The position numbers and the translations under genes are program-made. Shown here in pieces: positions 52,603 to 55,733 of a DNA stretch of 64,000 nucleotides. Origin of the DNA: Cellulomonas sp. KRMCY2. Lineage in GTDB: Bacteria > Actinomycetota > Actinomycetes > Actinomycetales > Cellulomonadaceae. Every line of letters begins with the position of its first letter. The first letter of the stretch is position 1. The notes beneath the pieces were generated by a model, which was not told the origin of the DNA, searched no databases, and saw nothing but the letters and a program-made list of their open reading frames with translations. The stretch is taken from positions 682,001 to 746,000 of the forward strand of contig NZ_JAGF01000001.1 of NCBI RefSeq assembly GCF_000526515.1. Direction: 5' to 3'.

Positions 52603-52730
52603 CGTCGTCCTCTCCTTGCTCACCGGCGCGCACCGGCCCTGAGGCGGCGACACGTCCTGGGCCGGCAGGCTGCTCGGTCCTGGCCCGACCGTACTCACTC
52701 CAGCATCAAAAGGGAACACACGCACCACTG

Positions 52731-52772
52731 TTCACTCACGTCACATGAGTCACAGAGGTCACACGAATCACA
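52731..52772. promoter_or_regulatory. Five-unit MtrA-type box array before the NlpC/P60 gene
   Basis: Units on a strict 9-bp period: TTCACT (52731), GTCACA (52740), GTCACA (52749), GTCACA (52758), ATCACA (52767), with 3-bp spacers. This matches the tandem GTCACA motif of MtrA, the response regulator that controls cell-wall hydrolase genes in related bacteria. Confidence 0.75.
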
Positions 52773-53115
52773 GCCTGCGCCCTCGCACCCCTCGCATCGA
52801 CACCCGGGGCGGCCGCCTTGAGGATGCGGATGGCGTGCCGGGTCAGCACGCTGTCTCACATCGCAAGACCGTCGTATCGCCATGGGGACGGCCGGCCGTA
52901 CGCTCCTGCCATGACCTGCCGAATGTGCCGCTGACCCGAGCACGTTCGGTGGTGTGCCCACTGACCGGTAGGACCGTCTCGCCCTCGCGGCGCTGACCCT
53001 GGCTACCGCTGCGGCACCGAACCCTCCGTGCACACCTGTCCCCAGTCCCTCGCGGGCCGGCCAGGGTCAGTGCGCTGGCAATGGTCGATCCGCGGCACCC
53101 CCAGAGGAGTCCGCC
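52773..53115 (+). promoter_or_regulatory. metYX leader region with candidate attenuator
   Basis: A 343-bp stretch without a large gene. It holds a small hairpin GCGTGC-CGGGTCA-GCACGC (about 52832-52850), a -10-like TACGCT (52899-52904), the leader peptide frame at 52911-52934, and a long stem: 52990-53003 (GCGCTGACCCTGGC) pairs with 53060-53073 (GCCAGGGTCAGTGC). CGCTGACCC also occurs at 52929-52937, overlapping the peptide stop, so two 5' arms compete for one 3' arm. No known SAM riboswitch core was found. Confidence 0.6.
52911..52934 (+). CDS. Putative leader peptide MTCRMCR
   Basis: ATG ACC TGC CGA ATG TGC CGC TGA: seven residues, two Cys and two Met. A -10-like TACGCT ends six bases before the ATG, so the transcript could begin at the A of ATG (leaderless). 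The stop overlaps one arm of a competing stem upstream of metY. Read as a sulfur-amino-acid sensor by analogy with Cys-codon leader peptides of actinobacteria; expression is not proven. Confidence 0.5.
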   Translation: MTCRMCR

Positions 53116-54435
53116 ATGAGCAACGAGAACTGGTCCTTCGAGACCCGCCAGATCCACGCCGGCCAGAGCCCCGACCCGACGACCGGCGCCCGGGCGCTGC
53201 CGATCTACCAGACCACGTCCTTCGTCTTCCCCGACGCCGCCACCGCCGGCGCCCGCTTCGCCCTGCAGGACCTGGGCCCGATCTACACCCGGATCGGCAA
53301 CCCGACCCAGCAGGCCGTCGAGGACCGCATCGCCTCGCTCGAGGGCGGGGTCGGCGCCCTCCTGCTGTCCTCCGGCCAGGCCGCCGAGACCTTCGCCTTC
53401 CTCAACATCGCCGAGGCGGGCGACCACATCGTCGCGAGCCCGAGCCTGTACGGCGGCACCTACAACCTGCTGCACTACACGCTGCCGAAGCTCGGCATCA
53501 CCACGACCTTCGTCACCGACCCGCACGACCCGCAGTCCTGGCGGGACGCCGTGCAGCCCAACACCAAGCTGTTCTTCGGCGAGACCATCCCCAACCCGCA
53601 GGCGGACATCCTCGACATCGAGGCCGTGGCCGCCGTCGCGCACGAGGTCGGGGTCCCGCTCGTCGTCGACAACACGGTGGCCACGCCGTACCTGATCCGC
53701 CCGATCGAGTTCGGCGCGGACATCGTCGTGCACTCGGCGACGAAGTACCTCGGTGGGCACGGCACGGCGATCGGCGGCGTGATCGTGGACGCCGGCACCT
53801 TCGACTACGCCAAGTACCCGGAGCGCTTCCCGAACTACAACACCCCCGACCCGAGCTACAACGGCCTGGTCTACGCCCGCGACCTGGGCGTCGGCGGGCT
53901 CTTCGGGGTCAACCTGTCGTTCATCCTCAAGGCGCGCGTCCAGCTGCTGCGCGACCTCGGATCGGCCATCTCCCCGTTCAACGCGTTCCTCATCGCGCAG
54001 GGCATCGAGACGCTGTCGCTGCGGGTCGAGCGGCACGTGGCGAACGCGCAGACCGTCGCCGCGTGGCTCGAGGCGCGCGAGGACGTCACCACGGTGCACT
54101 ACGCGGGTCTCCCGTCGAGCCGCTGGTACGCCAACGCCCAGAAGTACGCCCCGCGCGGGCCGGGTGCCATCGTGGCGTTCGAGATCGAGGGCGGCGCGGA
54201 GGCCGGCAAGGCGTTCGTCGACGCGCTCGAGCTGCACTCGAACGTCGCGAACATCGGCGACGTCCGGTCCCTGGTCATCCACCCGGCCTCGACCACCCAC
54301 AGCCAGCTCACGCCCGAGGAGCAGCTGCTGTCCGGGATCACGCCCGGGCTGGTGCGCCTGTCGGTCGGGATCGAGCACATCGACGACATCCTGGCCGACC
54401 TGGACGCCGGCTTCCGCGCGGCCAAGGCCGTGTGA
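53116..54435 (+). CDS. metY: O-acetylhomoserine aminocarboxypropyltransferase (sulfhydrylase)
   Basis: Pyridoxal-phosphate enzyme adding sulfide or methanethiol to O-acetylhomoserine, making homocysteine or methionine. The 439-residue protein starts FETRQIHAGQSPDPTTGARA and has YTRIGNPTQQAVEDRIA, the PLP lysine in VHSATKYLGGHGTAIGG and the end VRLSVGIEHIDDILADL. AGAGGAG precedes ATG 53116. It overlaps metX by one base. Controlled by the upstream leader if the attenuator model holds. Confidence 0.97.
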   Translation: MSNENWSFETRQIHAGQSPDPTTGARALPIYQTTSFVFPDAATAGARFALQDLGPIYTRIGNPTQQAVEDRIASLEGGVGALLLSSGQAAETFAFLNIAEAGDHIVASPSLYGGTYNLLHYTLPKLGITTTFVTDPHDPQSWRDAVQPNTKLFFGETIPNPQADILDIEAVAAVAHEVGVPLVVDNTVATPYLIRPIEFGADIVVHSATKYLGGHGTAIGGVIVDAGTFDYAKYPERFPNYNTPDPSYNGLVYARDLGVGGLFGVNLSFILKARVQLLRDLGSAISPFNAFLIAQGIETLSLRVERHVANAQTVAAWLEAREDVTTVHYAGLPSSRWYANAQKYAPRGPGAIVAFEIEGGAEAGKAFVDALELHSNVANIGDVRSLVIHPASTTHSQLTPEEQLLSGITPGLVRLSVGIEHIDDILADLDAGFRAAKAV

Positions 54436-55733
54436 TGCCGACGCCCTCCCGCCTGGACGTGGACATGTCGGGACACGCACGCACCGGGGCCGTAGGTTTG
54501 CACATCGTGCAGACCGACGAGAACGACCCGGCAGCGCGCCCCGGCGTGCCACCGGGCGCGGGCCCTCGGACGTCCCCGTCCGCACCGGGTCCGGCCTGGG
54601 CGACCGCAGGCACCCCGGTGCCCGCGAGCGCTGCCTGGCGGGAGGGCGACCCCGTCGGTCGCCGGCAGTTCTGCGACATCGGCCCGCTCGATCTCGAGGT
54701 GGGGGGTTCGCTCCCCCGGGTCCGCATCGCCTACGAGACCTGGGGCACGCTGTCGCCGAGCGGCGACAACGCCGTCCTGGTGCTGCACGCCCTGACCGGC
54801 GACTCGCACGTGACCGGTCCGGCCGGCCCGGGGCACCCGACGGCCGGCTGGTGGGACTCCCTGGTCGGCACCGGGCGTCCGATCGACACCGACCGCTTCT
54901 TCGTGGTGGCGCCCAACGTGCTCGGCGGCTGTCAGGGCAGCACCGGCCCGTCGTCCACCGCGCCGGACGGTCGACCGTGGGGCGGCCGCTTCCCCTACGT
55001 CACCATCCGGGACCAGGTCCGCGCCGAGCTGGCGCTGACCGACGCGATCGGTGTGCAGAGCTGGGCCCTGGTCATCGGGGCGTCGATGGGCGGGATGCGC
55101 GTGCTCGAGTGGGGCGCGATCGCCCCGGCCCGGGTCCGCGGCCTCGCGCCGATCGCCACCACCGCACGCACCACGGGCGACCAGATCGCCTGGGCGCACG
55201 CGCAGCTCGCTGCCATCCGGGGTGACGCCGCCTGGCGCGGCGGCGACTACTACGACGTCGGCGACGGTCAGGGCCCGCACGTCGGGCTCGGCGTCGCCCG
55301 GCAGATCGCGCACACGACCTACCGCAGCGCGATCGAGCTCGACGAACGCTTCGGCCGTGCGCCGCAGGTCGACGAGGAGCCCCTCGGTGGCGGCGGCCGC
55401 TTCGCCGTGCAGTCCTACCTCGACCACCACGCCGGCAAGCTCGCACGGCGCTTCGACGCCAACTCCTACCTCGTGCTGACCGACTCGATCCTCTCCCACG
55501 ACATCGGGCGCGGTCGCGGCGGGGTCCAGGCTGCCCTGGCCACGATCCCCGGTCGCGCCCTGGTGATCGCCGTGGACAGCGACCGGCTCTACCTGCCGGC
55601 CCAGTCGGCGGAGCTCGCCGCGGGGCTCCCCGGCGCCGACGGCGTGCACCTGGTGCGGTCCGACTTCGGGCACGACGGCTTCCTGATCGAGTCCGACCAG
55701 GTCGGCACCATGGTCCGGGACTTCCTGGCCTGA
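54435..55733 (+). CDS. metX: Homoserine O-acetyltransferase
   Basis: Acetylates homoserine, supplying the MetY substrate. The 432-residue alpha/beta hydrolase has the oxyanion region VLHALTGDSHVTG, the nucleophile in ALVIGASMGGMRVLEW and the catalytic His in RSDFGHDGFLIE. ATG 54435 overlaps the metY stop (TGATG). The N-terminus is about 60 residues longer than usual and Pro-rich, so an internal start such as ATG 54465 is possible. Confidence 0.95.
   Translation: MPTPSRLDVDMSGHARTGAVGLHIVQTDENDPAARPGVPPGAGPRTSPSAPGPAWATAGTPVPASAAWREGDPVGRRQFCDIGPLDLEVGGSLPRVRIAYETWGTLSPSGDNAVLVLHALTGDSHVTGPAGPGHPTAGWWDSLVGTGRPIDTDRFFVVAPNVLGGCQGSTGPSSTAPDGRPWGGRFPYVTIRDQVRAELALTDAIGVQSWALVIGASMGGMRVLEWGAIAPARVRGLAPIATTARTTGDQIAWAHAQLAAIRGDAAWRGGDYYDVGDGQGPHVGLGVARQIAHTTYRSAIELDERFGRAPQVDEEPLGGGGRFAVQSYLDHHAGKLARRFDANSYLVLTDSILSHDIGRGRGGVQAALATIPGRALVIAVDSDRLYLPAQSAELAAGLPGADGVHLVRSDFGHDGFLIESDQVGTMVRDFLA

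Follow-up and report, generated by a model that had tools for sequence, protein, structure and literature searches.

In the window, that is, the whole stretch of 64,000 nucleotides analysed here, the genes metY and metX follow a very short reading frame that has a promoter-like element directly upstream. The features of the locus are the following:

52853..52869, no strand assigned: imperfect palindrome GTCTC-N7-AAGAC at -58 relative to the leader ATG, a putative transcription-factor site
52899..52904, + strand: -10 element TACGCT, 6 nt upstream of the leader ATG
52911..52934, + strand: leader-peptide frame MTCRMCR*, ATGACCTGCCGAATGTGCCGCTGA, probably leaderless
52920..52928, + strand: core codons CGA-AUG-UGC (R-M-C), also arm 1 of a local hairpin
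52940..52948, + strand: arm 2, GCACGTTCG, just 3' of the stop, able to pair with arm 1 or arm 3
53028..53034, + strand: arm 3, CGTGCAC, alternative partner of arm 2
53042..53060, + strand: genus-level hairpin CCRGYCC...GGGCYGG, found by eye in a 15-sequence alignment
53066..53079, + strand: genus-level hairpin GTCAGTGCGCTGGC, the 5' part of which is the downstream arm named in a first-pass annotation of this DNA
53103..53109, + strand: Shine-Dalgarno sequence AGAGGAG of metY
53116..54435, + strand: metY, O-acetylhomoserine/O-acetylserine sulfhydrylase (NCBIfam NF005872, 774.6 bits against a cut-off of 703)
54435..55733, + strand: metX, homoserine O-acetyltransferase (NCBIfam NF047917, 521.6 bits against a cut-off of 475)

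The start of metX overlaps the end of metY by 1 nt, and the nearest named relatives of the window metY belong to Cellulomonas, Actinotalea, Oerskovia and Sanguibacter. The copy ahead of metYX is the only one of this leader found in the genome. One of the seven genomic matches to CGAATGNNNNNNTGA is the leader itself; for each of the other six a single downstream frame was examined, and none of these was recognisable as a methionine gene. The leader reads ATG-ACC-TGC-CGA-ATG-TGC-CGC-TGA, begins 6 nt after TACGCT and is the sole TANNNT-N6-ATG frame of at most 10 codons on either strand of the window. A sigma-70 consensus scan requiring a -35 box found no consensus -35 element at this leader. The first-pass annotation had described the region as a Cys/Met leader peptide with competing stems, and all the elements it named are in place: TACGCT at 52899, ATGACCTGCCGAATGTGCCGCTGA at 52911-52934, CGCTGACCC at 52929 and 52991, CACTGACC at 52959 and GGGTCAGTG at 53064-53072. 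It had also reported no SAM riboswitch, and a scan of the window against Rfam indeed yielded no hit at any family's gathering threshold.

A strict family pattern, ATG-N(3-9)-CGAATGTGYNNCTGA, in which any gap of 3-9 nt is permitted, was matched in 117 of 150 sampled genomes of the window's family, and a reversed-pattern control in 0 of 150. The leader peptide ahead of metYX is conserved across relatives. The gap between ATG and CGA is 6 or 9 nt in all the matches listed, i.e. in-frame lengths only; since no other lengths occur although 3-9 nt were allowed, insertions preserve the reading frame. The pattern gave 120 places; G081 and G019 were left out, L136 and L230 are the same place, and 118 distinct places were retained. 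A TANNNT box lies within 14 nt upstream of the peptide ATG in 116 of these 118 fetched places, at a distance of 6 nt in 52 and of 7 nt in 64 of the 116. By these counts MTCRMCR with its -10 box is beyond chance, because it is unique in 64 kb and recurrent in 117 of 150 genomes. Transcription very probably starts at the peptide ATG, which would make the frame leaderless.

Downstream of the leader, metY is present in 109 of the 118 distinct places. The remaining nine have metX directly downstream in six cases (L194-L197, L210 and L211, where metX, as in L294, was named by eye), metN in two, and an inverted second copy in one; the two metN places are also the two among the 118 with no -10 box at the expected place. 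In L153 (G105:C12:519550-523400) a second, inverted copy of the leader together with the DNA upstream of it lies about 1.2 kb away, beside a metY copy, and this inverted copy precedes an NlpC/P60-like frame (named by eye). In G000:C1, CGAATGTCCTTCTGA occurs three times within 11 kb (near 2360791, 2364690 and 2371673), which suggests a repeated element. Five of the 33 family genomes lacking the strict pattern were read: G024, G029, G032 and G034 carry diverged forms and G022 none. In G004, also among the 33, the contig ends too early to tell.

Cys and CGA counts taken from the strict-pattern matches are conditioned by the pattern itself; the unconditioned counts come from a survey in which a TANNNT box followed by a short frame was sought near metY in 85 metY loci, at least four of them entered twice. 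For this survey 35 (L032-L066) of the 80 metY-relative loci were taken and the 45 more distant ones left out, and 38 frames of 5-12 codons were counted, L028/L286 and L026/L033 being the same loci. Arg-Met is present in 37 of these 38 leaderless frames, and its Arg codon is CGA in 37 of 37, in a survey that was not conditioned on CGA. CGA represents only 7 of 147 Arg codons in six ORFs of the window, and the Arg codon directly before the core Arg is CGA in only 2 of 81 leaders.

Cys follows Met in 35 of the 37 Arg-Met frames; the two exceptions end in RMRS and RMPS. Outside the family, L014 (RMRS) and L063 (RMPS) keep CGA-AUG with the Cys replaced, and a search with CGAATG found further Cys-less relatives: L268, L282 and L288 (RMRR), L269 (RMPF), L279 (RMHH) and L037 (RMTSR). 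Met is therefore more constant than Cys in the sampled leaders, since the Cys-replaced relatives retain CGA-AUG. At the sixth codon from the end, stop counted, Cys is found in 27 and Arg in 81 of 116 leaders. In the leaders sampled, Cys is usual but dispensable, and only a minority have the second Cys; the paired Cys and paired Met codons emphasized in the first pass are present in the window peptide but do not form a conserved core, the Cys at codon 3 recurring in only 27 of 116.

Among the 45 tRNA places found in the window's genome, the Arg anticodons are ACG, CCG, TCT and CCT, and no tRNA-Arg(TCG) is found among them. In bacteria the ACG-anticodon tRNA-Arg carries inosine; in the absence of a TCG anticodon, CGA should therefore be read only by this tRNA. 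An assay of CGA in a his leader was reportedly done in Salmonella. The accessible part of the report on the bacterial his leader assay describes CGA as poorly read and as lifting attenuation when placed there (PMC4046918).

Endings of the R-M-C type are also found elsewhere ahead of metX, metN, metQ and metF. A relaxed order-level pattern was matched in 223 of 396 genomes, mostly by chance outside a few families, controls also matching in some, and it served only to pick places from among the matches listed. Twenty such matches were chosen by hand among those listed: 10 have a MetY-like gene downstream, three metF, one metX and one metQ, four show no methionine gene and one (L289) is undecided. 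The three metF leaders are longer frames with R-M-C twice. The metF, metN and metQ proteins fall below the NCBIfam curated cut-offs, although these are their best-named matches; the metQ protein also passes Pfam Lipoprotein_9, and MetN in L333-L335 was named by eye. The sequence CGN-ATG-TGY-GCN-TTY-TGA is present in 3 of 20 Streptomyces-sized genomes; each time the Arg codon is CGA and a MetN-like protein is encoded downstream. In 296 genomes of the class, the strict core occurs at 26 places in 24 genomes, of which one is the window, 10 are frames of family f19 and 15 are apparently due to chance. A search of the same 296 genomes for M-C-R-R-M-C gave four matches, none a recognisable methionine leader. 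The f19 loci (L308, L309, L311-L317 and L331) carry a frame for some 30 residues, several of them Met, that ends in MCCRMCR or MCCRMCS; these frames resemble the Streptomyces-sized metN leader and precede an orphan winged-helix regulator. In eight of the 10 f19 loci the proteins encoded downstream are alike, and the one that was tested is a Trans_reg_C regulator.

The SAM-IV riboswitch of Rfam was detected in 18 of 40 metY loci scanned (in L039 it is located after metY), whereas the five scanned loci from the window's own family (L283-L287) lack it, as does the window. In six loci (L037, L050, L268, L269, L275 and L282) SAM-IV and metY are separated by a stretch that includes a CGA-AUG frame, starting with ATG or GTG. 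Loci L043 and L045 have short poly-Cys frames (MCCLSCCCQSTST and MCCSICCC) directly 3' of SAM-IV and upstream of metY.

As to RNA structure, the first-pass annotation had proposed that two copies of CGCTGACCC, one over the peptide stop, compete for the same downstream arm. The second copy does pair with the 3' arm in the minimum-energy fold of the window's leader. Among 109 metY-linked leaders, this copy is private to the window's genome: GCTGACCC has a second copy in only one of the 109, that of the window itself, and the third pairing element, ACTGACC/GCTGACCGG, is found in only 6 of 109. GCTGACCC is located at the stop in 41 of 109 leaders, and an RGGTCAG-type 3' arm is present in 21 of 109 and in 14 of 15 members of the window's genus. 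In one genus member, L126, the stop-side CUGACCC is changed to CUGAUCC together with GGGUCAG to GGAUCAG on the 3' side, which lends the stop-to-arm pairing some in-genus support; no such support exists for the second copy. An exact 9-nt direct repeat occurs in 827 of 2553 overlapping 175-nt segments, and with a complement of at least 8 nt in 87 of 2553; taken alone, the repeat with its stems does not clearly exceed what chance would give. In the alignments and pairing counts, other helices are the ones that recur in the family. The observations of the first-pass annotation are thus partly confirmed, and its interpretation is partly supported.

Two potentially competing helices exceed shuffled sequences: CGAAUGUG with GCACGUUCG after the stop (1:2), and the GCACGUUCG arm with a downstream CGUGCGC (2:3). 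Of 108 distinct leaders, 104 have arm 2, scored as GCAC no more than 20 nt past the stop, and 80 have arm 3, spelled CGTGCGC, CGTGCAC or TGTGCGC; dinucleotide shuffles, which ignore kinship, predict 9.75 leaders with arm 3. A run of at least six pairs between arms 1 and 2 can be formed in 67 of 106 leaders, against 17.8 in shuffles (kinship ignored). Between arms 2 and 3 such a run is found in 97 of 106, against 39 shuffled (kinship ignored), but also in 82 of 106 in a reversed-arm control, because the arm is nearly palindromic; consequently, the 2:3 count is weaker than its face value. In our reading of the alignment, compensatory changes in helix 2:3 are limited to three or four lineages (examples are CCGCAC/GTGCGG, GCACAC/GTGTGC and TCGCAC/GTGCGA). 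Hairpin 1:2 is present in the consensus fold of the 15 genus members and in the window's own fold, and carries an A-C mismatch in the GCACGCTCG forms (13 of 108 leaders). The group with MTMRMCC/MTKRMCS peptides largely lacks arm 2. The whole window leader is modestly more stable than its shuffles (z -1.80; 10 of 200 fold at least as well). In the genus alignment of 15 sequences, stretches able to form two hairpins are located close to the metY start. In CCRGYCC...GGGCYGG one pair is A-U in some members and G-C in others, and this hairpin is absent from the consensus fold of the alignment; GTCAGTGCGCTGGC is found in 13 of 15 genus members and 15 of 109 family members.

These features suggest, with moderate confidence, that the element is a leaderless, ribosome-mediated attenuator of metYX, responsive to Met or Cys, gated by the slow CGA codon and possibly acting via Rho. 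The attenuator-like layout seen in the first pass, a leader peptide with alternative helices, is retained here with other helices. The peptide would end in R-M-(C)-x-stop, encoded by CGA-AUG-(UGY), with one hairpin arm just after the stop, and this arm 2 would switch partner between the codons of arm 1 and the segment further downstream, arm 3. When charged Met-tRNA or Cys-tRNA is short, the ribosome would wait at CGA-AUG-UGY and cover arm 1, so that arm 2 is freed, helix 2:3 forms and metYX is expressed. With a good supply, the ribosome would be at the stop, covering arm 2, or gone, leaving arm 2 to be taken by arm 1 in helix 1:2, and expression would be reduced; the layout would thus have three states. 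The single internal Met codon is fewer than expected of a classical sensor, a point against an attenuator; the absence of a consensus -35, the single leader copy in the genome and the G022 metY locus that lacks the leader also weigh against it. However, a slow CGA read by the ACG tRNA and placed beside AUG may form a sensitive sensing point at which a single Met codon would suffice. For this leader we infer both the amino acid sensed and the sign of the response.

Several ways in which the signal could reach the downstream genes were considered. Masking of the Shine-Dalgarno sequence as the switch was modelled with a ribosome at Met, Cys or the stop in 108 leaders and gave no consistent direction; with a stall at Met, the opening energy was lower by more than 0.5 kcal/mol in 44 and higher in 20 of 108, and that of the window leader was unchanged. 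An intrinsic terminator was rejected, as the longest T run is at most 3 in 109 of 109 leaders and none was found on the + strand in 52700-53200. Programmed frameshifting at CGA was examined as well: the other two frames have median open lengths of 67 and 55 codons, and a fusion is not conserved, because these frames close within 20 codons in 13 and 23 of 109 leaders. C exceeds G in 109 of 109 leaders (mean 0.479 against 0.298), and the average C excess is found both inside the 2:3 loop (88 leaders) and beyond it (97 leaders); the window's own leader is mildly C-rich, below the family mean, and 10% of background segments reach its value. Rho-dependent attenuation is discussed for mycobacterial leaders in the available part of one report (PMC11260477). 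The C-rich leaders fit such a mechanism, without showing it, and Rho-dependent termination appears more likely as the output step than an intrinsic terminator or direct masking of the Shine-Dalgarno sequence.

The ribosome might instead stall at Cys codons alone, as in the mycobacterial polycysteine type of leaderless attenuator, an explanation close to the idea of the first-pass annotation. Cys after Met in 35 of 37 Arg-Met frames is in line with it, as are Met-Cys occurring twice in the metF leaders, the family metN leaders and two of the three Streptomyces-sized metN leaders (by eye) and the poly-Cys frames after SAM-IV ahead of metY in L043 and L045. We nevertheless consider it unlikely, given that CGA-AUG is kept with the Cys replaced in eight relatives (L014, L063, L268, L282, L269, L279, L288 and L037), that the second Cys position is Arg in 81 of 116 leaders, and that the downstream genes are methionine genes.

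Constancy of the peptide could also mean that R-M-C-x is itself the sensor, responding inside the ribosome to methionine, S-adenosylmethionine or another small molecule with a stall no later than the stop. What follows Met is variable, however (CR, CC, CS, RS, PS, PF, HH and RR), and a peptide sensor does not need the constant synonymous choice of CGA; even with the short, nearly fixed distance from R-M to the stop and R-M in 37 of 38 frames in its favour, this explanation seems improbable to us. More doubtful still is that CGAAUGUG functions mainly as RNA, either by forming one side of a hairpin or by being bound by a protein or small RNA, with a secondary role of the reading frame. Its pairing with the arm after the stop does exceed shuffles (67 of 106 against 17.8), whereas the in-frame spacing, the stop codon in place and the narrow -10-to-ATG gap speak against it, and CGA-AUG is kept in leaders whose partner arm is missing or decayed (L215, L218, L219 and the Streptomyces-sized metN leaders).

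Known regulators of methionine genes include riboswitches, T-boxes and repressors. Searches of the open-licence literature of PubMed Central turned up a single entry on this leader class, namely metL, the leader peptide that precedes metNIQ in Streptomyces lividans TK24. As far as the accessible part of that report goes, metL is leaderless by RNA-seq, has 29 residues with several Met, ends in CMCRRMCAF and has no typical Rho-independent terminator (PMC8079986). Both peptides are of the leaderless type, that of the window by its predicted start, precede a methionine gene and have R-M-C near the stop, and three Streptomyces-sized genomes share the RMCAF ending with CGA-AUG-UGC; the metL match independently supports the possibility that a peptide of this sort starts at the 5' end of the transcript. 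They differ in length and gene, and metL is listed for one operon of one species, as Met and Thr containing; the accessible entry makes no mention of the CGA-AUG-UGY core, its spread, or metY, metX, metF and metQ (PMC8079986).

The mycobacterial polycysteine leaderless sORF attenuators, as presented in the parts available of two reports, have contiguous Cys codons ahead of sulfur genes (PMC9031893, PMC13236596). A leaderless short frame ahead of sulfur genes and ribosome speed as the signal would be common to both; in contrast, MTCRMCR has no contiguous Cys, and its relatives combine one or two separated Cys with a constant CGA-AUG. Cys-operon leader peptides of Mycobacterium, Propionibacterium and Bifidobacterium, with Cys runs near the stop, appear in the accessible part of a 2005 survey of actinobacteria, where no conserved RNA regulatory structure is reported ahead of methionine operons (PMC1262725); a short frame near sulfur genes, no terminator and a suggested role of Rho are shared with the window leader. 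The SAM-IV riboswitch (RF00634) precedes the same gene in other families and is absent from the window. Classical his/trp attenuators combine a leader peptide with competing helices, a layout proposed here too, and CGA slows the his leader in the part of the report available (PMC4046918). The window leader resembles them in having codons for the product amino acid, AUG and usually UGY, near the stop with metYX downstream, but has no terminator hairpin with a U tract.

More tentatively, the leaders may represent an actinobacterial methionine-regulon class that senses through the single codon pair CGA-AUG, in which the inosine-read CGA would hold the ribosome and one Met codon would report Met-tRNA charging. 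The same element would serve metY, metX, metN, metQ and metF across several families, standing in for SAM-IV in some lineages and acting in tandem with it in others. The conserved CGA-AUG pair would then be a case in which a slow synonymous codon is selected for because the sensor needs it to work. For annotation, a leaderless R-M-x-x-stop frame with CGA-AUG offers a lead that flags methionine genes in several families of Actinomycetota.

Upstream of the promoter, the family form of the palindrome is GTCTC-N7-GAGAC. The best-matching site begins 57 to 59 nt before the ATG in 86 of 109 leaders, and a score of at least 8/10 is reached in 83 of 109 leaders against 2 of 109 shuffled ones. This fixed distance also favours the predicted transcription start. 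The palindrome is perhaps the site of a methionine regulator. In L029 (G022), a metY locus of the family that shows no such leader peptide in the nearest 450 nt, GTCTC-like and GAGAC sequences are present upstream, and the metN leader of L136 is preceded by a longer GTCTC...GAGAC palindrome.
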